A stretch of 43,567 bases of DNA. Source: Acidimicrobiaceae bacterium (GTDB lineage: Bacteria > Actinomycetota > Acidimicrobiia > Acidimicrobiales > Ilumatobacteraceae). Below the pieces are notes generated by a model that did no database searches, was not told where the DNA came from, and saw nothing but the letters and a program-made list of their open reading frames with translations. A program made the position numbers and the translations under genes. How positions within the stretch are numbered: position 1 is the stretch's first letter; each line of letters opens with the position of its first letter. The DNA lies in the NCBI GenBank assembly GCA_947488385.1, contig CANKZL010000001.1:1-43567 (forward strand), in the 5' to 3' direction. Of this stretch, positions 56-10,099 are shown one piece after another.

Positions 56-637
56 TCACATTCGACTCAGTTCTATTTTTCGCAAAAGCTCGACGAATTC
101 GGGTTGCTGCACCCCGGCACACCACATAACGATCGCGTCGTCTCGGTTCTCGTAATACTTTTTGCGCACACCTGCAGGCACAAAGCCGAAGCGACGATAA
201 AGCTGTTGCGCTGCAATATTCGTGTGTCGCACCTCGAGAGTCATCGCCTCGCAACCCCGACGATTCGCTTCCCACGCCAAGTCGAGCAACAGTTCGGTGG
301 CAATTCCACGACTTCGCCACATCGGATGCACCGCAACATTTGTAACGTGCGCATCACTATCGACATAAAGCAGACCGCCGTATCCCACGAGCTCTTCGCC
401 AATCGTGCCAACAAGATAGTGACGTCGCCCAGCCCGAACTTGTTCGAGTTCTTCAACAAAAACTTGCGCCGTCCATGGTCGCGGATAAATCTGCTGCTCG
501 ATCGGCATGATCTTGCGAATATGCGCCCGTCGCATCGGCACGATCACAAGTTCTTGCGATTCTTCACCCTCGATACTTTGAGTAGAGTCGCGCGTTTCTT
601 GTGCTTTCGAGCGAATGAAGCGATCCAAAATGCTCAT
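56..637 (-). CDS. rimI: Ribosomal protein alanine N-acetyltransferase RimI (GNAT family)
   Basis: The 193-residue product is a GNAT acetyltransferase. In this family RimI transfers acetyl from acetyl-CoA to the N-terminal alanine of S18, and in many bacteria the gene travels with the t6A genes. The acetyl-CoA loop is visible as HPMWRSRGIATELL at about residues 104-117, and the C-terminal GNAT signature runs from EVRHTNIAAQQLYRRFGF to KKYYENRDDA. About 30 charged residues precede the fold, so the chain is longer than the usual 145-160. The ATG overlaps the tsaB stop (ATGA), which implies translational coupling. The exact protein substrate is inferred from family and context. Confidence 0.93.
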   Translation of the reverse strand: MSILDRFIRSKAQETRDSTQSIEGEESQELVIVPMRRAHIRKIMPIEQQIYPRPWTAQVFVEELEQVRAGRRHYLVGTIGEELVGYGGLLYVDSDAHVTNVAVHPMWRSRGIATELLLDLAWEANRRGCEAMTLEVRHTNIAAQQLYRRFGFVPAGVRKKYYENRDDAIVMWCAGVQQPEFVELLRKIELSRM

Positions 638-1347
638 GAGTTCACTCGTGTCTGCCAGTTGATTTCAGCATCTGCCTGACGCAAATAAAGTGCCTGCAGT
701 TCTGTTGCGGTCTGCCATTGCTCATGCAACGCCAACTCGGCGGCGATCAGTGCCAATACGGCGGCACTTGGTTGGGCAAGTTGTTCGCTCGCCCATTCAA
801 TTGACAGACCAGTCGTTTCAAGAGACTCGCTGATTTGTGCGCGATATCGCAGTGCGCCATTGCCGACAATCAAAGCTGCCTGACCTCGATCCACGACGTC
901 GACAATGCAGTCAGATATTTGACCAACTCGCGGCGGCTTTACTTCGATGCTCGGGCCAACGTCATTGCGGTACATCGACCAATAAAGTTCGCCGCGACGC
1001 GCGTCAATTGTCGACAACACAACTCGATCAGTCGTAGAAACAGAACGCGCCAAGATATCTAGGCTTGAGACACCAATTATCGGCACGTCTAAAACTTGAG
1101 CGATCGACTTTGCTGATGCAATACCCACTCGCATTCCCGTGAACAAACCTGGTCCGATATCTACAGCTACGACATCAATCTCGCGCATTGCAATGTCAGC
1201 TTGGGCGCAAACATTTTCGATCATTGGCGCCAGCAACTCAGCATGACGACGATCGCTCGTGACATGAGCACCGGCCAACAACTGCTTTGAGTTGTTCACC
1301 GCCACACTCACGGCATCAGTCGAAGTATCTATCGCTAAAACGATCAT
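634..1347 (-). CDS. tsaB: tRNA threonylcarbamoyladenosine biosynthesis protein TsaB
   Basis: This 237-residue protein is an ASKHA-fold paralogue of TsaD. TsaB partners TsaD and TsaE in transferring threonylcarbamoyl to A37 of ANN-decoding tRNAs in the cytoplasm. It opens with MIVLAIDTSTDAVSVAV, the ATPase phosphate-1 strand, and carries GPGLFTGMRVGIASAK at residues 65-80, the hallmark of the family. The length is normal. It lies 5 nt after tsaE and overlaps rimI by 4 nt, giving the standard tsaE-tsaB-rimI-tsaD order; tsaD itself falls outside the window. Confidence 0.97.
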   Translation of the reverse strand: MIVLAIDTSTDAVSVAVNNSKQLLAGAHVTSDRRHAELLAPMIENVCAQADIAMREIDVVAVDIGPGLFTGMRVGIASAKSIAQVLDVPIIGVSSLDILARSVSTTDRVVLSTIDARRGELYWSMYRNDVGPSIEVKPPRVGQISDCIVDVVDRGQAALIVGNGALRYRAQISESLETTGLSIEWASEQLAQPSAAVLALIAAELALHEQWQTATELQALYLRQADAEINWQTRVNS

Positions 1348-1352
1348 CGCTC

Positions 1353-1862
1353 TCAGCCTCGCGCCAATACTTTGAAACTGGCTACTAACTCTTCGCTGAG
1401 CTTGTTAAATCGGCTCGCCCATTGGGCTCCACGACTCTCAATTGTGACTGTGCGTGGTGCGTCTGCGCTGTTTTCTGCACCCCCAACTTCATGGGCAAAG
1501 CCCATGATCAGCGCATCCCCAAGTTCATCGCCGACAATGTCGCCCCATTCAACAGCGATTACCCCACCACTGTCTTGCAACTCATCAAGACCCAAATCGG
1601 CCAGTTCGCCAGTTCGCTCTAGGCGATAAAGGTCGGCGTGATGCAACGACATTCTTCCTGAACCGTAATTGTGCAACAGATTGAACGTTGGCGAGGTAAT
1701 CAGATCAGTAACGCCGAGCGCTCGGCCAAAACTTTGTGTAAATGTCGTCTTTCCAGCGCCCATTTCGCCGGCCAAAATAATCATGTCGCGCGGTCGAACG
1801 TGCTTGGCAACAATCTGCGCCAGACGATCGGTGTCAACTAACGAGACAAGCAGAATTTTCAT
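1353..1862 (-). CDS. tsaE: tRNA threonylcarbamoyladenosine biosynthesis ATPase TsaE
   Basis: The 169-residue product is the P-loop ATPase that drives the TsaB-TsaD cycle in t6A synthesis. Walker A is GEMGAGKTT at residues 32-40, followed by the family motifs SPTF at 57-60, HHADLYRL around 74-81 and VEWGD near 104-108. A C-terminal stretch of about 35 residues beyond the core is less recognisable. The gene starts 5 nt after the alr stop, in the middle of a tightly packed operon. Confidence 0.97.
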   Translation of the reverse strand: MKILLVSLVDTDRLAQIVAKHVRPRDMIILAGEMGAGKTTFTQSFGRALGVTDLITSPTFNLLHNYGSGRMSLHHADLYRLERTGELADLGLDELQDSGGVIAVEWGDIVGDELGDALIMGFAHEVGGAENSADAPRTVTIESRGAQWASRFNKLSEELVASFKVLARG

Positions 1863-1867
1863 CGTGA

Positions 1868-3001
1868 TTACTTTTTGCTGTCAAGATATTTGCGCGGCAC
1901 GCGTGCGCTTATTCCACAAACAATTTCATAGCCAATTGTTTCAAGTTTGGCTGCGACTTCATTTGCCGAAATTGACTGTGAATCCTGAGTGCCGATCAAA
2001 ACTGCATGGTCGCCAATTTGCACATCGGCATCACCGCAATTGACCATCAGCTGATCCATCGTTACCACACCAACAATCGGGCAACGCTTGCCACCAATCA
2101 AAACTTCACCACCCACTTTCCAGAGACGACGCTGTATTCCGTCGGCGTATCCAATTGGCAACGTTGCAATCGTCGCTGCTTGGCTCAACTTTGTTCGCAA
2201 ACCATATGAGACGCCTTCACCTTTAGCAAGATGCTGCACATGACTGACCCGTGCATGAAGCGAAAGTGCTGGCTGCAGATCTTTAGCAAATGATTCAAGT
2301 TCGCTACTTGGCGCAATTCCATAAATTGCGATTCCAACGCGAGCAATGTCGGTTGTTGCACTCAAGACGCGCATCGCAGCAGCCGAATTTGAAGTGTGAA
2401 CATACTTTGGTCGCAAAGACTCTCGGTCTAATTCGGCAACTACGTTGTCGAATCGTTGCTGTTGCTTGTCTGTCTCGTCATGGCTCGGCAAATCAGCTGC
2501 AGCAAAGTGCGTGTATACGCCCTCAAGTTGTAGCGACGCAAACGAACTGATCTGTCGACATCGAGTCATCGCGCTGGCAACTGGTGCACCGACTCGATGC
2601 ATCCCCGTATCTACTTTCAGGTGAACTTTGCCGACTATTCCAAGATCTGACGCAGTTTTTGCGTAACTATTTATAGTTGACTCGTTATAGAGCGTTGCCA
2701 CGACATCGTCGCGCAACATTTGCTCGAATTGTGTTGCTGGTTGCTCGCTAACGATCAAAATCGGCGCTGTAATTTTCGCTTGACGAAGTTCGTGGGCCTC
2801 GTCAGCAAGCGCCACGCACAAACCTGTTGCACCAGCACCCAAAGCAGCCCGTGCTGCTTGAACCGCTCCATGCCCATAGCCATTTGCTTTTACAGTTGCC
2901 CATAGTTGGGCCTTGCCTGCTTGCTTGACCAGCAAAGCAACGTTTTTTTGAATCGCTCCAAGATCTACTTCAACCCACGCCCAACGATTGTCGGTGTTCA
3001 T
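1868..3001 (-). CDS. alr: Alanine racemase
   Basis: A fold-type III PLP enzyme of 377 residues that interconverts L- and D-alanine for peptidoglycan. The PLP lysine is K38 in KANGYGHG, the substrate-facing arginine is R136 in DTGMHRVG, and the opposite-face catalytic tyrosine is Y266 in SYGLRT. The C-terminal beta-domain contains GVVTMDQ. It lies 12 nt after acpS and 5 nt before tsaE. Many actinobacteria carry an NAD(P)HX repair gene between acpS and alr; none is present here. Confidence 0.97.
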   Translation of the reverse strand: MNTDNRWAWVEVDLGAIQKNVALLVKQAGKAQLWATVKANGYGHGAVQAARAALGAGATGLCVALADEAHELRQAKITAPILIVSEQPATQFEQMLRDDVVATLYNESTINSYAKTASDLGIVGKVHLKVDTGMHRVGAPVASAMTRCRQISSFASLQLEGVYTHFAAADLPSHDETDKQQQRFDNVVAELDRESLRPKYVHTSNSAAAMRVLSATTDIARVGIAIYGIAPSSELESFAKDLQPALSLHARVSHVQHLAKGEGVSYGLRTKLSQAATIATLPIGYADGIQRRLWKVGGEVLIGGKRCPIVGVVTMDQLMVNCGDADVQIGDHAVLIGTQDSQSISANEVAAKLETIGYEIVCGISARVPRKYLDSKK

Positions 3002-3013
3002 CGCGGCCGACTT

Positions 3014-3379
3014 TTAGTTGCTCGCGACAACAGCGACAGCCGTGTCTTCAGTGTGAGAAAGCGAGACAAGCCACGATTTCACACCTTGCGCTTTTGCAAT
3101 TTCAGCGGCACGACCTGTGACGACCAGTTCGGGCGCACCAGATTCGCGACTGCGAATTGAAACGTCGTGCAGATCGAACGCGCCAAGCCCCACCCCGAGT
3201 GCTTTCATCGTCGCTTCGCGCGCGGCAAATCTCGCTGCCAAACTTGGGGCACTATCAGCACGACCTGCAAGAGATTCAAGTTCTTTTGCAGTGAATACGC
3301 GCGAACGCAGAGAAGGTGTTCGGTCTAGTGCAGCACGAAACCGCTGCACATTCACAGCGTCAATTCCGATTCCGATCAT
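3014..3379 (-). CDS. acpS: Holo-[acyl-carrier-protein] synthase
   Basis: The 121-residue product is a short AcpS-type phosphopantetheinyl transferase that converts apo-ACP to holo-ACP from CoA. The magnesium ligands fit D7 in GIGIDAV and E55 in RFAAREATMKALG. The usual motif reads AAKEA, so the lysine before the catalytic glutamate is arginine (R54) here, a conservative change; the second lysine, K59, is kept. The gene sits 8 nt after the giant glmS and 12 nt before alr. Confidence 0.96.
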   Translation of the reverse strand: MIGIGIDAVNVQRFRAALDRTPSLRSRVFTAKELESLAGRADSAPSLAARFAAREATMKALGVGLGAFDLHDVSIRSRESGAPELVVTGRAAEIAKAQGVKSWLVSLSHTEDTAVAVVASN

Positions 3380-3387
3380 GTGGGTCT

Positions 3388-6300
3388 TTACTTTGCGCGC
3401 CAGTGATCAGCCATGTCACTGATTGGCAAAATCAACAAGTCAGCAACCGAAACTTCTGCCAAACGGTCTTCTCTAAATGAACCTTCAGTTTCGGTCACCC
3501 AGTCCACAAGACGGTCGTAGCGACGGTCATACCCTTGCAATACTGCGCGCATTGCAGTCGCTGGCAAACGATCATGAAACATCACGTGCAACAAAGTGAT
3601 GCCGGTTGTCTGGCCACCTTTTGTTTCAGGCACCATGATCACTGTTCGATTATCGCTTCGCCCGCGCGCCACGAGAACTTCTTGGTCACTTGCGACACGT
3701 CGCTTGGTTCCGACGAGTTGTGAGTTGCGGTCAACACGCGACGTGAGATTTTTTGACATTCCCCCACGGTCAACAATTGCGATCGTGGCTTGAGAACTGG
3801 CAATGTCACCCTCAATTTGATATCTCGTAAACCCGGTTACGGCACTGACTGCAGCGTCAAGATCGGCGACAATCTTCAATACGCGATATGAAAGTCGCTC
3901 ACGCGCTACACCAGCTTCAAGCAAAGCCTTTACTAGCGGACGATCAAACAAGCCTTCATCACTGCGCGAGATACCCACCGTCACGGTCTTTGCTTGATGT
4001 TTGATCGCATCAACCGGACGAGTCAATTCATCTACGCCTCGTGTCAGCGCGCTTGTCAGATCATCTAACAACAACTCTGGTGAGGCGATCTTTCCCGAAC
4101 TGCGCTGATACGCCTGAACAGGGTCGTTCGACAAAGTGTCTCGCAACATCGTGACGATTCGCACCGCTGTGCTGGCCTCTAAGTTGCCGTCGTAGTTGCC
4201 TGTTGCTAATGCATCGGTGAATCGTGTTGCCGGTGCACCCAACTCGGTGCGAATCTTGACCAACAATTGATTTGCATCTCCACCACGCTCAACTGCGTGC
4301 TCGACAACTTCACGCGCCTCACGCAATGGCCTAGCCAAAGCATCAATCGCCAGTGCCGCCTCATAACCAAACAAGTGACCCACCATCACGCTCAATATGA
4401 ACGACAAATTCGTCTCGACATTTGGCACCAGCAACACTGCTGCCGCTGCATCAAACCTCGTCTGACCCGCAGTCGCAACAACAATCGGCAGTGCTTTGTG
4501 GGCCCGATAGATCGCAATCTCTTTGGCGACATCCGAGGCCGTACCTTCGAGCAACCCAGTTGCACAAACGAAAATCAGTGGCTCGCACGACAGGTCAATA
4601 TGTTTTTTATCCTCAGTCGAGTCACTTGAAATTGACTTGTAGCAAAGTTCCGAAAGCTTGATGCGCACTTCTTGCGCTGCGATCGTATTCATGCCGTTGC
4701 CAACAACTGTCCAATATCGCCGTGACGACGCAAACTGTTTCGCCGCCGCTGAAATTTGTGGCCGTGTTGCAAGAACTTCAACCAACGCATCTGGAATTTT
4801 GCGCAGTCCAGCAAGTAATTCGTGTCGCGCACGATCAGATGATTTACCAACTGCCTTCGAAAGAGCGCATGCATAAAGAGCACCGGCTGCAACCTGAGCA
4901 TAAAAAGCTTTCGTGCTGGCAACACTCATTTCAACGTCGCGACCATCAGACGTATACATCACACCGTCTGCTTTGGCCGACAGTTCACTACCCCGACGGT
5001 TGACGATCGCCAAGACACTCGCACCTCGTGCTCGAGCCAAGTCCACTGTGCGGTTCGTGTCAGTCGTTGTTCCACTCTGACTGACCGCCACAACAAGCGT
5101 GTCGCTCATATCGAGCGCCAAACCAAAACCCGAAAGTTCGCTGGCCAACAACGCCTCAACACTTAACTCGATACCCACAAGGTCACTGAGCAACCTCGCC
5201 AAAGCTTGCCCCGCAACAGCAGCCGTACCCTGGCCAATCACACGTACTTTTTTAATTTCACCAGACGCCAATCGGTCACACACAGATTTTGGCAATACTT
5301 TTTCACCCAGATCTGTAGTCAATAGGCCATTCACTTCGACAATTCGGCCTCGAATCGTTTTACGAAAACTCTGCGGTGCTTCAGCGATTTCTTTAGCCAA
5401 AAAATGTTTGTGTTCACCACGGTTGATGTCTCTGGTTGTAATCTCAGCGGTCAAAACTTTGTCTTGGCTCAGTGGAAGCTGACGACCATCGTATGAAACC
5501 AATTCAATACCCGAGAGTTCGCCGGCGCCTTCACCAGAGAGCGCGACAACTTGACCACGGCTTGACGGATTATCAACATCAGCGAGCGCTTCGCCATCCA
5601 TTCGCACATAATTCAGCGTCTCTTCAACCACACCGTATGGTTCGCTCGCGACAATGAAGCGATCTTCAGCAAGACCGATACACAATCCTTGGCCGCTTCC
5701 GTGCAATGCAAGCAACAACTTGTCTGGTGCCGTTGCGCTCGCTGCAGCAATCGCCACCGAGCCTTCAAACTCGGCAACTGTTTGACGAAATGCATCTAAA
5801 AGATTTGAGTTTGTCGACAATCTTCGTGACACCAAGGCGGGGATAACTTTTGCATCGGTTGTGATCGGCCCCGCGACGCGCAAACCGTATTGCACTCGCA
5901 AGTCTGCGTGATTATCAACGTCGCCATTCAACGCTGCGACAAGATATGCATCATCGTGCTTGCCTTCAAGTTCTTCGCTGTTCACTGGGTGCGCATTCGG
6001 CTCAGAAATAATGCCGACGCTCGCCCAACGAGTGTGGGCCAAAACTGCGACTTGAGAATTAGTTTGCGACAGACATAGACGCAACAGATCATCAGCCATC
6101 ACCGCGTTACGCATTACGCGGGTGTTGTCACCAAGTTCGCCGATCTCTGCCGCTGCTTTATAAACAAAAGACCATGCGTTCTCTGTAATCCGTATGGAAC
6201 CAGACATGAACAATGCATCTTCACTGCGATTTGCAAGCAAAGACTTTACGTTTTTGTCTGTCGGCTTCAAGCCATGATTCGAAACGAGCACGTGAATTCC

Positions 6301-6795
6301 TGCTGAGTCGCGTCCGCGAACTTCAAGTCGATCAAGACCCGAGAATGCTTGTTGAATCGAGAAATATCCGCTGCGCGCCGAATTTGAAGCCCCCTGCCCA
6401 GCCAGCGCATCTACAAGTCGCGCTGTTCGAATTCGGTCGTTACGCAACTCCCAGATCGCATCTTTAGCGCGAATAATCTCCTGCAACGCGTGCTCTGAGG
6501 TCTCTGTCTGCAAACTCGCCGACTTCTCAAGCGTTAATTCATAGGCATCGACAATCGCATCAAGTTGATCAATTCGCGATGTCATTGCAGCAACCAATTG
6601 ATGGTTGTCGGCCATGCAGAATTGGCCGGCATCACCCCGCAAAAGTTTGTCGGCTGTCGTCACCGCCAAAGCAAGTTGATCGATGTCGCTCTTCATTCCA
6701 GCTTCGAGTGCGGCGTCCAACAGGGCCAAGATCTCTTTGGCAGTTGGGGTGGCTCGTCGTGTCGGACGACTGAGCACGCAGATTATTCCGCACAT
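3388..6795 (-). CDS. glmS: Giant GlmS-like glutamine-fructose-6-phosphate aminotransferase with insertions and a C-terminal extension
   Basis: The product has 1135 residues; GlmS is normally about 600-625. The N-terminal nucleophile Cys (MCGI) is present, but about 130 mostly helical residues separate it from RLEVRGRDSAGI (156-167), which normally lies near residue 25. Glutaminase motifs follow: HTRWASVG (254-261), NAHPV and NGDVDNH (290-296). The SIS1 domain has SQSGTTTDT (572-580) and VASTKAF. In SIS2 I align K713, E716 and H732 without gaps to E. coli K485, E488 and H504. The canonical C-terminal loop is seen as AKTVTVG near 935-941 (K936 for K603), but after an extra ~100 residues, and a further ~195 residues follow that I do not recognise. 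Immediate linkage to glmM supports glucosamine-6-phosphate synthesis. Function of the added segments is unknown. Confidence 0.9.
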   Translation of the reverse strand: MCGIICVLSRPTRRATPTAKEILALLDAALEAGMKSDIDQLALAVTTADKLLRGDAGQFCMADNHQLVAAMTSRIDQLDAIVDAYELTLEKSASLQTETSEHALQEIIRAKDAIWELRNDRIRTARLVDALAGQGASNSARSGYFSIQQAFSGLDRLEVRGRDSAGIHVLVSNHGLKPTDKNVKSLLANRSEDALFMSGSIRITENAWSFVYKAAAEIGELGDNTRVMRNAVMADDLLRLCLSQTNSQVAVLAHTRWASVGIISEPNAHPVNSEELEGKHDDAYLVAALNGDVDNHADLRVQYGLRVAGPITTDAKVIPALVSRRLSTNSNLLDAFRQTVAEFEGSVAIAAASATAPDKLLLALHGSGQGLCIGLAEDRFIVASEPYGVVEETLNYVRMDGEALADVDNPSSRGQVVALSGEGAGELSGIELVSYDGRQLPLSQDKVLTAEITTRDINRGEHKHFLAKEIAEAPQSFRKTIRGRIVEVNGLLTTDLGEKVLPKSVCDRLASGEIKKVRVIGQGTAAVAGQALARLLSDLVGIELSVEALLASELSGFGLALDMSDTLVVAVSQSGTTTDTNRTVDLARARGASVLAIVNRRGSELSAKADGVMYTSDGRDVEMSVASTKAFYAQVAAGALYACALSKAVGKSSDRARHELLAGLRKIPDALVEVLATRPQISAAAKQFASSRRYWTVVGNGMNTIAAQEVRIKLSELCYKSISSDSTEDKKHIDLSCEPLIFVCATGLLEGTASDVAKEIAIYRAHKALPIVVATAGQTRFDAAAAVLLVPNVETNLSFILSVMVGHLFGYEAALAIDALARPLREAREVVEHAVERGGDANQLLVKIRTELGAPATRFTDALATGNYDGNLEASTAVRIVTMLRDTLSNDPVQAYQRSSGKIASPELLLDDLTSALTRGVDELTRPVDAIKHQAKTVTVGISRSDEGLFDRPLVKALLEAGVARERLSYRVLKIVADLDAAVSAVTGFTRYQIEGDIASSQATIAIVDRGGMSKNLTSRVDRNSQLVGTKRRVASDQEVLVARGRSDNRTVIMVPETKGGQTTGITLLHVMFHDRLPATAMRAVLQGYDRRYDRLVDWVTETEGSFREDRLAEVSVADLLILPISDMADHWRAK

Positions 6796-6822: not shown

Positions 6823-8154
6823 TCAGCCGAGTCGCGCAGTTATGGCTTGTGCCAAGGTGGCAGCGACTGATTCTGCCGTGGCTTGTTGTGACGCTTCAAC
6901 CATCACCCGAACCATCGGTTCAGTTCCACTCGCTCGCACGAGCACACGTCCATTTGCTTGCAGAGACTTCTCTGCTGATGCAATCTCTGACTCAAATAGT
7001 TTTTCGATATTTTCAACACGTTTGCTGACACGTAAATTAATCAGCACCTGCGGAAAACTGGTCATTGCTGCACTAGCGATTTCGCCAAGTGTCTTCTTCG
7101 CCTCGGCAACAATTGCCGACAACATCAGGGCAGCCAAGAGACCGTCACCAGTCGTAGCCAAATCGCGATAAATAATGTGACCACTCTGTTCGCCACCAAG
7201 CACAAGCGAATTTTCTTCAAGTGCAGCAAGCACCGATCGATCTCCGACTGGTGTGGTCACCACTTCAATCTCCGCTTTTTTCATTGCCTGGTGAAAGCCA
7301 ATGTTTGTCATCACCGTTACGGCAACTTTATTGTTGCGCAAAGTTCCACGACGCTTCATCTCAGTTGCGCTGATTGCGATCAAGTGATCTCCGTCGACAA
7401 TTTCACCCTTCTCATCTACGGCGATCAATCTGTCACCATCACCATCAAAAGCAATTCCAAAATGTGCACCAACATTTGTGACGACCGAACACAGCATCGC
7501 TGGGTGCGTGGCGCCGCATTGCTCGTTTATATTTCGACCATCTGGTGTCGCATTGATAGTCGTCACCGTTGCCCCGAGTTTTGTAAAGACTTCTGGTGCA
7601 ACATTGCTATAAGCACCGTTCGCACAGTCAAGAACGACGTGCAATTTGCTGAAGTCTGTCGTGTCGACTATCTGAGACAACCAGTCACAATACTCTTTGA
7701 CAAGTTCAGGTTTGGGCGTTTCTGCGCGTTCGCTGCTCGCACCAATTGTGCCCGAAGTCGATTTACGTGTGCGTTCAAGCAGCTGTTTTTCAATCTCTTC
7801 TTGTTCTGAGTCAGAGAGTTTTAGACCACCGGCGCCAAATATCTTGATTCCATTGTCTTGATACAAGTTGTGCGACGCGGTAATCGCAATCGCCACGACA
7901 TTTCGTCGCATGGCCGAAAACGCAATCGCTGGGGTCGGAGCAATCCCCATTAGTTGAACTTCAATGCCTTCTTTGATAAGCGCATTCGCAATTGCTGTTT
8001 CTAGAAGCACCCCAGATTCTCGAGTGTCTCGACCAATCACGACTGTTTTGCATCGCAGAACTTGTGCAGCGACAACTGCCAGATCGGCGGCGTAACTCTC
8101 GGTCAGCTCTGTGCCAAATTTGCCACGCACACCGTCGGTACCAAATGTCAACAT
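6823..8154 (-). CDS. glmM: Phosphoglucosamine mutase
   Basis: This 443-residue alpha-D-phosphohexomutase converts glucosamine-6-phosphate to glucosamine-1-phosphate for UDP-GlcNAc synthesis. The phospho-serine is S94 in ITASHN, the magnesium loop is DGDGDR at 237-242, the sugar-binding loop contains GGEQSGH, and the phosphate-binding loop RASGTEPMVRVMVE lies near the C-terminus. The length matches the family. The gene follows rpsI after 94 bp and precedes the GlmS-like gene by 27 bp, so both consecutive enzymes of the pathway are together. Confidence 0.98.
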   Translation of the reverse strand: MLTFGTDGVRGKFGTELTESYAADLAVVAAQVLRCKTVVIGRDTRESGVLLETAIANALIKEGIEVQLMGIAPTPAIAFSAMRRNVVAIAITASHNLYQDNGIKIFGAGGLKLSDSEQEEIEKQLLERTRKSTSGTIGASSERAETPKPELVKEYCDWLSQIVDTTDFSKLHVVLDCANGAYSNVAPEVFTKLGATVTTINATPDGRNINEQCGATHPAMLCSVVTNVGAHFGIAFDGDGDRLIAVDEKGEIVDGDHLIAISATEMKRRGTLRNNKVAVTVMTNIGFHQAMKKAEIEVVTTPVGDRSVLAALEENSLVLGGEQSGHIIYRDLATTGDGLLAALMLSAIVAEAKKTLGEIASAAMTSFPQVLINLRVSKRVENIEKLFESEIASAEKSLQANGRVLVRASGTEPMVRVMVEASQQATAESVAATLAQAITARLG

Positions 8155-8248: not shown

Positions 8249-8644
8249 TTAACGCTTTGTGTACTGTGGCGCTTTGCGCGCTTTTTTGAGACCGTATTTC
8301 TTGCTCTCTTTGCGACGTGAATCGCGAGTCAACAAGCCGGCCTTCTTCAAAGCAAGTCTTTGAGTTGGATCAAGTTCTACGAGTGCACGTGCAATCGCCA
8401 TTCTCAGCGCACCTGATTGACCGGCAATACCGCCGCCAACAATGTCTGCATCTACGTCGTAGCTCGCCTGAGTGTTTGTGATTCGCAATGCTTCGGTTGA
8501 AGAGTTGCGCTGAACCTCTGATGGAAAGTACTCGGCAAACTCACGGTCGTTGATTTTTACAACACCAGTACCTGGTCGAAGTCGCGCGCGACAAACTGCA
8601 TGCTTACGACGACCTGTTGTCTGTGTTAATGGCTTTGTTCCCAC
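8249..8644 (-). CDS. rpsI: 30S ribosomal protein S9
   Basis: The 131-residue product ends in the basic tail KKARKAPQYTKR, whose last residues reach the P-site tRNA in the small subunit. The core motifs TGRRKHAVCRARLRPG and GGGIAGQSGALRMAIARAL are diagnostic. The start is GTG, with an AAGGAAA ribosome-binding site about 11 nt upstream. It pairs with rplM in the conserved L13-S9 operon, 30 bp downstream of rplM. Confidence 0.98.
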   Translation of the reverse strand: MGTKPLTQTTGRRKHAVCRARLRPGTGVVKINDREFAEYFPSEVQRNSSTEALRITNTQASYDVDADIVGGGIAGQSGALRMAIARALVELDPTQRLALKKAGLLTRDSRRKESKKYGLKKARKAPQYTKR

Positions 8645-8674
8645 GAGTTATGTTTCCTTTTTCTGTTCAGCGAC

Positions 8675-9121
8675 TCAACGAGCCTTGGCGTGCGGAATCT
8701 CAAGCACCTTTGGTGATTGCGCCGCATGTGGATGTTCTGCACCTGGATAAACCTGCAACTTCTTAATCATCTGTCGACCAAGTGAACCTTTTGGCAACAT
8801 GCCACGAATCGAACGGCGAATTGCATCGCCCGGTTTGCGACCAAGCAAGTTTGCGTATGTTTCAGACTTGAGACCACCTGGGTAACCCGAATAGTCATAG
8901 ACCATTTCGCGATCAGCCTTGCCTGAGGTAAGGACAATCTTCGATGCGTTGATGATCACAACATGATCACCCGTGTCCATGCTTGGTGTGTACATCGGCT
9001 TGTGCTTGCCGCGAAGCAACGTTGCGACTTCTGTGCAAAGACGACCGAGAACTAAACCTTCTGCGTCGATGATGTGCCAAGCACGCTGCACATCGGTTGG
9101 TTTTGCTGAATAAGTACGCAT
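8675..9121 (-). CDS. rplM: 50S ribosomal protein L13
   Basis: The 148-residue product has L13 signatures: WHIIDAEGLVLGRLCTEVATLLRGKHKP near the N-terminus and AIRRSIRGMLPKGSLGRQMIKKLQVYPG. It is an early assembly protein of the large subunit. The ATG is preceded by AGGA with 7-nt spacing. A 135-bp spacer separates it from truA and holds a candidate promoter and inverted repeat. Confidence 0.98.
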   Translation of the reverse strand: MRTYSAKPTDVQRAWHIIDAEGLVLGRLCTEVATLLRGKHKPMYTPSMDTGDHVVIINASKIVLTSGKADREMVYDYSGYPGGLKSETYANLLGRKPGDAIRRSIRGMLPKGSLGRQMIKKLQVYPGAEHPHAAQSPKVLEIPHAKAR

Positions 9122-9192
9122 AAAGAAATCCTCAAAAAATTAAATATTGCAACCGCCAGAGAGCATTTCGCACCCGTTTTAACGGCCTAGTA

Positions 9193-9222
9193 AGGATAGG
9201 GCCGAAAACCCGAGATTCACAA
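9193..9222 (-). promoter_or_regulatory. Candidate promoter for rplM-rpsI
   Basis: On the minus strand, TTGTGA and TATCCT are separated by 18 nt, each matching 4 of 6 consensus positions of a housekeeping promoter. The predicted start lies near 9186, giving a leader of about 65 nt before rplM. Position and spacing are seen; activity is inferred. Confidence 0.35.
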
Positions 9223-9229
9223 TCGGCCC
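9199..9229 (-). promoter_or_regulatory. Inverted repeat in the truA-rplM spacer
   Basis: The arms GGGCCGA and TCGGCCC are perfectly complementary over 7 bp and flank a 17-nt loop. It overlaps the candidate rplM promoter, so it could be a weak terminator for the upstream operon or an operator-like element. There is no U-tract after it in the minus-strand RNA. Confidence 0.35.
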
Positions 9230-9256
9230 AAGCAAAATATGGGCTTTACCCGCTGC

Positions 9257-10099
9257 CTAAACGGCCCGATCAGTTAGATCGCTCGGATACCCAACTTCTG
9301 TCAGAAATAAACCTTGTGGCGGGGCTAACTGCGACGCCTCGGCGCGATCGCCCGATCGAATCAGCGCCATCATGTCACTGCTGGGTCTCTTTCGTGCACC
9401 GATTTCAATAAATGTGCCAACCAGCGACCGAACCATTTGGTGACAAAACGCGTTGGCCCGAATATCAAACCTGAACACTGAGTCGCCCACATCTTTCCAG
9501 CTTGCTTGCATCACATGCCTACGCAACGACTTCTCACGCACAATTTCGCCCGTCGCATCTTGCAATTCAGAACCCTCGAGGTCAGGTTCATTATCGGGTT
9601 TCGGTCTGCGACAAAACGCAGAAAAATCATGGGTACCGATTATCGGATCGCAAGCCAACTGCATCGCATGCAAATTCAATGGAGCAATCACATGCCAAGC
9701 CGATGACACTTTAAACGGATCTGGAAAGTCGGCGTTGTAAACGAAATATTGGTAGTGACGCCAAATGGCCGAGAAGCGGGCGTGAAAGTCGGCGCTCGCC
9801 CACGCAATTTCTTTGACGATGATTTCTGGGCCGCAAAGTGAATTCAGTTGCTTGCGTAATGTCGGCAATTCACAATGTGCAGGCACATCACAACTAACCA
9901 CCTGTGCTTTCGCGTGAACCCCAGCATCGGTACGACCAGCCGAGACAAGTGGAATCGGCTGTTGAAATATTTGTTGCAACGATTCGCCGAGGCTGCCTGC
10001 GACCGTGCTTACTCTCGGGTTAATCGCAAAACCGTGAAACGGCGTGCCGTCATAGGCCACGATCATTCGTACACGACGCATCAACTTTGACGCAGTCAC
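9257..10099 (-). CDS. truA: tRNA pseudouridine(38-40) synthase TruA
   Basis: This 280-residue product isomerises uridines 38-40 in the tRNA anticodon arm. The catalytic aspartate is D58 in AGRTDAGVHA, and the N-terminal strand VRMIVAYDGTPFHGFA and the later CHQMVRSLVGTFIEIG segment are family landmarks. It lies 54 bp after rplQ, the standard actinobacterial position, and is the last gene of the large ribosomal cluster before the L13-S9 unit. Confidence 0.97.
   Translation of the reverse strand: MTASKLMRRVRMIVAYDGTPFHGFAINPRVSTVAGSLGESLQQIFQQPIPLVSAGRTDAGVHAKAQVVSCDVPAHCELPTLRKQLNSLCGPEIIVKEIAWASADFHARFSAIWRHYQYFVYNADFPDPFKVSSAWHVIAPLNLHAMQLACDPIIGTHDFSAFCRRPKPDNEPDLEGSELQDATGEIVREKSLRRHVMQASWKDVGDSVFRFDIRANAFCHQMVRSLVGTFIEIGARKRPSSDMMALIRSGDRAEASQLAPPQGLFLTEVGYPSDLTDRAV

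Follow-up and report, generated by a model that had tools for sequence, protein, structure and literature searches.

Glucosamine-6-phosphate synthase (GlmS) is the gateway to peptidoglycan and a drug target, and is among the most constant of enzymes in size and plan. In normal GlmS the catalytic C-terminal tail (C-tail) is a free end; the eukaryotic form, GFAT, is under feedback by UDP-GlcNAc. The bacterial enzyme, as in E. coli (PDB 1JXA/2J6H; NCBIfam model TIGR01135), has a two-domain plan with an N-terminal Cys, tandem SIS, a Lys/Glu/His set, and a C-tail Lys. In known enzymes the C-tail is a mobile element with residues of both active sites, and in E. coli it is restrained by an R331–E608 salt bridge (PMC8041777). 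In human GFAT-1 the C-tail bears T679, a glutaminase-site residue, and the UDP-GlcNAc site comprises T447, T458, G461, and H463 (PMC7000685).

We analyzed a 43,567-nucleotide stretch of DNA (the window) from an Acidimicrobiaceae bacterium (class Acidimicrobiia, hereafter the class), which encodes a GlmS homologue of 1135 aa that we call giant GlmS. Since a review gives the size range of GlmS as 589–716 residues (PMC9272926), giant GlmS lies outside the published range. It shares every element of the two-domain bacterial plan, but differs from bacterial GlmS in its sequence (about 24–29% identity), in four extra segments, in forming a separate clade, and in scoring below the curated cut-off of the family model. 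No description of an enlarged GlmS in this bacterial group turned up in the literature searched; giant GlmS is an undescribed, deeply diverged, enlarged GlmS subfamily. We are largely confident that it is, as predicted, a working enzyme and probably the only GlcN-6-P synthase of its owner, and that it represents an ancient subfamily of single origin that replaces normal GlmS across much of the class. We infer catalysis from the fold, the set of residues kept, sole occupancy, and the position of the gene.

Giant GlmS gene and its neighborhood

The open reading frame (ORF) at 3388-6795 on the minus strand has an ATG start and an MCGI N-terminus, while the plus strand of this interval has many stops. 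Pfam recognizes SIS (1.9e-17) and GATase_6, and the NCBIfam models TIGR01135 (247.1 of 418.05 bits) and NF001484 (279.5 of 381 bits) both give strong matches that stay below cut-off. By sequence, giant GlmS falls outside the subfamily described by these two models, though its predicted working is GlmS-like; because such equivalog models miss the giants, annotation pipelines may call genomes GlmS-negative. The initial annotation had read the ORF as an enlarged GlmS homologue with additions at four sites, with the equivalents of E. coli K485, E488, H504, and K603 kept and with glmM next door, and our analysis bears out each part of that reading. Its further suggestion, that the enlargement may bring built-in regulation or partner docking, is taken up below as a hypothesis. 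The genes concerned are as follows.

56..1862, minus strand: rimI, tsaB, and tsaE
1868..3001, minus strand: alr, alanine racemase
3014..3379, minus strand: acpS
3388..6795, minus strand: giant GlmS, glucosamine-6-phosphate synthase homologue, 1135 aa (ORF, Pfam, NCBIfam, relatives, and model)
6823..8154, minus strand: glmM, phosphoglucosamine mutase, the next enzyme of the pathway (TIGR01455, 471.8 bits over cut-off)
8249..10099, minus strand: rpsI, rplM, and truA, the upstream end of the conserved cluster (shared gene order)

The glmM gene lies 27 bp upstream of giant glmS. No Rfam match to a glmS ribozyme/riboswitch was found anywhere in the window. A scan of genome contigs for giant GlmS returned 80 loci, by name mostly Acidimicrobiia-type metagenome-assembled genomes (MAGs); a few, titled as Bifidobacterium or Acidobacteria, seem to be MAGs under a wrong label. 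These loci have in common, as far as their contigs extend, the order truA-rplM-rpsI-glmM-GlmS-acpS-alr-tsaE-tsaB-rimI. The normal glmS genes of the class occupy the same slot of the same cluster, so that position next to glmM is common to both forms in this class, and giant and normal GlmS stand in for each other at a single operon position. In one family outside the class (f103; L126, L127, and L128), the giant gene is away from the glmM operon, yet is the sole GlmS found.

The whole architecture is kept in 61 relatives of the window's giant GlmS, at 54–92% identity, which puts it well outside the reach of chance. It is scarcely conceivable that the size is an artefact of assembly or annotation, such as a fusion of neighboring genes. 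Single genomes do show frame breaks (G046 is an example), but 73 genome-contig loci, one of them on the complete chromosome of Aquihabitans sp. G128 (L092), carry an uninterrupted frame of about 1,110–1,150 aa whose segments differ little in length. With the same frame present in relatives, artefact or gene fusion was ruled out.

Domain layout and four extra segments

When aligned with E. coli GlmS and six relatives of normal size, giant GlmS shows four large extra segments, totaling about 470 residues relative to E. coli, with a few small indels making up the remainder. Relative to that enzyme, segment I contributes about 130 more residues after the first strand (within 11-150) and segment II about 48 more before HTRWASVG (within 173-246); segment III adds about 95–105 residues between SIS2 and the C-tail (821-926), and the C-terminal addition comprises the 194 residues following AKTVTVG (942-1135). 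Residues are numbered Met-first for giant GlmS and from Cys1 for E. coli.

6766..6795, minus strand: residues 1-10, holding the Cys nucleophile C2 (E. coli C1) and the glutaminase domain's first strand, modelled at 3-9 (alignment and model)
6346..6765, minus strand: residues 11-150, extra segment I, helical (alignment and model)
6280..6345, minus strand: residues 151-172, glutaminase core, LDRLEVRGRDSAG (alignment)
6058..6279, minus strand: residues 173-246, extra segment II (alignment and model)
5446..6057, minus strand: residues 247-450, glutaminase core with HTRWASVG, N290/G291 oxyanion, and D314 (Pfam, residue alignment, and 1xff superposition)
4846..5433, minus strand: residues 455-650, SIS1 subdomain with SQSGTTTDT phosphate loop (Pfam SIS 1.9e-17)
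4336..4845, minus strand: residues 651-820, SIS2 subdomain with K713, E716, and H732 (superposition and residue alignment)
4018..4335, minus strand: residues 821-926, extra segment III, all-helical, directly before the catalytic C-tail (alignment and model)
3964..4017, minus strand: residues 927-944, C-tail, RPVDAIKHQAKTVTVGIS, with catalytic K936 and T939 (residue alignment, model, and conservation)
3391..3963, minus strand: residues 945-1135, C-terminal domain (C-domain) with PAS-like fold and helices (genome surveys, model, and fold search)

Conservation is uneven along the protein: it is lowest in segment I (8 of 140 positions invariant) and highest in the C-tail (15 of 18), while the C-domain has a mean of 0.71, as against 0.70–0.77 in the catalytic domains. 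Modelled helices of segment I span 19-34, 38-51, 54-61, 65-91, 98-132, and 138-157, and sequence comparison of this segment with solved structures returned generic helix bundles only. All four extra segments are constant features of the giant subfamily.

Predicted structure and active sites

A full-length AlphaFold2 model was obtained at mean pLDDT 86.9 and pTM 0.74. Convergence of the catalytic residues in a model had been raised as a check from the outset, and residues 2-939 superpose on E. coli GlmS (Z 42.6) and on human GFAT-1 (PDB 6R4E; Z about 43), so the eukaryotic enzyme has the same catalytic fold, although its extra segments differ from those of giant GlmS and sit elsewhere. Taken by domain, the E. 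coli glutaminase domain 1xff fits at 1.7 Å over 236 residues (Z 30.6), and the isomerase domain, 457-939, fits 1MOQ at 2.3 Å over 353 residues (Z 41.3). Segments I and III are helical in the model. The only long stretch with pLDDT under 50 is the C-tail loop, 934-947, as befits the mobility of the C-tail in known enzymes (PMC8041777).

K713, E716, H732, and K936 correspond to E. coli K485, E488, H504, and K603 and are invariant in 62 giants. In E. coli numbering, the invariant equivalents in the same 62 are C1, R26, R73, W74, H86, N98, G99, D123, S347, Q348, S349, T352, E396, E481, K485, E488, H504, and K603. The Cys nucleophile and glutamine pocket (C2, R256, W257, N290, G291, and D314; 62 sequences) and the loops that bind the phosphate of fructose-6-phosphate (S572, Q573, S574, and T577) are thus present and invariant in the giants, as is T939, the equivalent of GFAT-1 T679. 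The S303 equivalent is Ala in all giants, and also in one of seven normals. Other active-site neighbors have likewise changed throughout the giants: KHGP reads KHID, C300 is Q, H77 is V/I, and Y28 is R. The equivalent of E608, partner in the E. coli salt bridge, is absent in giants, where a 191-residue domain follows the C-tail. The GFAT-1 UDP-GlcNAc site is not kept: a HMMER alignment to 6ZMJ (whose chain numbering is 6 above that of PMC7000685) pairs T447/T458/G461/H463 with V598/A609/V612/Y614. Because these residues are replaced, UDP-GlcNAc feedback through a GFAT-1-type site is unlikely in giant GlmS.

Spread and exclusion of normal GlmS

In a survey of 247 genomes of the class, the giant C-domain occurs in 95, from 30 families, in the same architecture of ~1,120–1,160 aa (a tally that omits one further weak match, in genome G203, taken as chance), while a normal GlmS of ~610 aa scores over cut-off in 139, from 23 families. 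No genome of the 247 has both, against 53 expected if the two were independent; since the genome-level hypergeometric ignores kinship, the fairer measure of exclusion is the family tally, in which no family holds both giant and normal GlmS. The initial annotation, which suggested looking for the same architecture in related genomes, had set against its own reading a normal-sized glmS elsewhere in the genome; none occurs in the 95 giant-bearing class genomes, and none was found in the window's genome (assembly 69% complete). Giant GlmS is the standard GlmS across much of the class, beyond what that annotation saw. Much of the class, abundant freshwater actinobacteria included, relies on a GlmS nearly twice the usual length, and the owners comprise aquatic and soil actinobacteria.

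A draw of 396 genomes from the phylum contains the C-domain in 35, seven of them outside the class, and never apart from a giant-type GlmS, although a number of the frames are interrupted or lie where a contig ends. Six of the seven have no normal GlmS. The seventh, G332 (L125, L263), with a listed contamination of 5%, is the only genome seen with both giant and normal GlmS; its giant gene lies away from the glmM cluster. The C-domain gave a chance match only in plasmids, and phage records matched the GlmS core only, with no record covering 80% of the query.

Evolutionary history

In a tree of the GlmS core, all 38 giants, including those outside the class, form one clade (100% SH-aLRT); the branches that part it from all 48 normals, E. 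coli GlmS among them, measure 3.64 and 2.82 changes per site (about 6.5), and with a quick method and a long branch, we claim no exact position for the root. When the giant/normal label is mapped on a proxy tree built from rplM, rpsI, and truA, 5 changes suffice, compared with 17.6 in shuffles, and at least 2 are required by branches with strong support. This is read most simply as a single origin of the giants followed by a few exchanges, in place or by transfer, in either direction.

So long a branch, together with KHID for KHGP and the other fixed changes near the active site, might indicate an enzyme derived from GlmS but turned to a different task, with another amino donor or sugar, in cells that get glucosamine-6-phosphate otherwise. 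This is very improbable, given that, S303 apart, every catalytic and phosphate-loop residue is kept and that giant GlmS strictly replaces normal GlmS in the same slot beside glmM.

C-terminal domain and the role of the additions

Modelled alone, the C-domain reaches pLDDT 94.8 as a PAS-like sheet with helices (two strands, helices, and three strands). Among solved structures its fold is best matched by residues 173-359 of the large glutamate dehydrogenase of Mycobacterium smegmatis (L-GDH180; PDB 7JSR), with a Foldseek probability of 1.00 (E 1.2e-3) and Z 8.6 over 156 residues at 4.4 Å; next come GAF, PAS, and Cache sensor domains at Z ≤7.3, all of these Z values being near the level seen without true relatives. 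The match covers nearly all of the C-domain, and the PAS/ACT segment of L-GDH180 is likewise a sensor-like extra on an enzyme of nitrogen metabolism, but it is N-terminal whereas the giant GlmS domain is C-terminal, and identity is 12–15%. Profile–profile comparison of the C-domain with the L-GDH180 PAS region scored 16.9, which was equalled by 17 of 150 column shuffles, and the comparison with enlarged alignments gave no significant support for common descent; the likeness is likely one of fold only. No convincing known Pfam domain was found among the 42 C-domain members examined, no solved sequence relative of the domain was found, viral structures gave nothing convincing, and no GDH_ACT2 was found in the window's genome.

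From this evidence, the extra segments, and the C-domain above all, might constitute an allosteric sensor by which a nitrogen or amino-sugar metabolite sets C-tail mobility, replacing the UDP-GlcNAc feedback of GFAT. We consider this a real possibility, if short of probable. The confidently modelled PAS-like topology and its sensor-domain matches point that way, as do the direct joining of the C-domain to the C-tail and the loss of the eukaryotic feedback site, but PAS and GAF folds are widespread and some bind no ligand, profiles lend no support to kinship with the dehydrogenase domain, and one giant, in genome G244, does without the C-domain. That the additions are instead structural, serving a larger oligomer or a docking surface, for instance for GlmM, without sensing, seems to us somewhat doubtful: while the helical segments I and III, the low conservation of segment I (as expected of a scaffold), and the constant adjacency of glmM in the 80 loci, where the contig reaches, all agree with it, the C-domain matches the catalytic domains in conservation, a sign of something more than a loose surface, and in family f103 the giant gene is away from glmM.

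In our proposed working of giant GlmS as a synthase, the freed N-terminal Cys would hydrolyze glutamine, and the ammonia would travel along the interdomain channel and reach the tandem-SIS isomerase domain, where the C-tail Lys, together with the Glu and His, would convert fructose-6-phosphate to glucosamine-6-phosphate, to be passed by the product of the adjacent glmM toward peptidoglycan. In the least certain step, segment III and the PAS-like C-domain, which flank the mobile C-tail, would be placed to hold or gate it, probably as a small-molecule sensor or as a docking/oligomerization module. Control or restraint of the C-tail by the additions is plausible because the C-tail, the most conserved stretch, lies between segment III and the C-domain, and the C-domain may control it. 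The most specific version of this proposal is an ancient second form of bacterial GlmS in which a helical insert and a PAS-type metabolite sensor would hold the C-tail between them. An essential cell-wall enzyme would thereby gain built-in allosteric control in a lineage that lacks the eukaryotic UDP-GlcNAc site, with a sensor module in common with large glutamate dehydrogenases; this version strikes us as unlikely.

Natural variants

Two mutually exclusive forms in one slot, together with natural loss of the C-domain, make the role of the additions directly testable. The giant GlmS of G244 (L151:1465-4620), listed at 1051 aa counting from the first ATG, stops just past AKTVTVGISRR; another gene follows after 17 bases, and both the C-domain and acpS are missing. 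This giant keeps the catalytic motifs, has gained low-complexity inserts, and groups with its genus in the core tree. G203 (L152), of the same genus and listed as 98% complete, has glmM, but its glmS slot holds a RarA-like AAA ATPase gene and an nnrD-like gene after glmM, and no glmS was found elsewhere; it is a possible amino-sugar auxotroph. As single MAGs, they give a provisional hint that giants can lose the C-domain, which would make it accessory to catalysis. In G046 (L131:5983-9520), a two-contig assembly, the giant is split by one frameshift after KKHIDLS, either a sequencing error or a real break.
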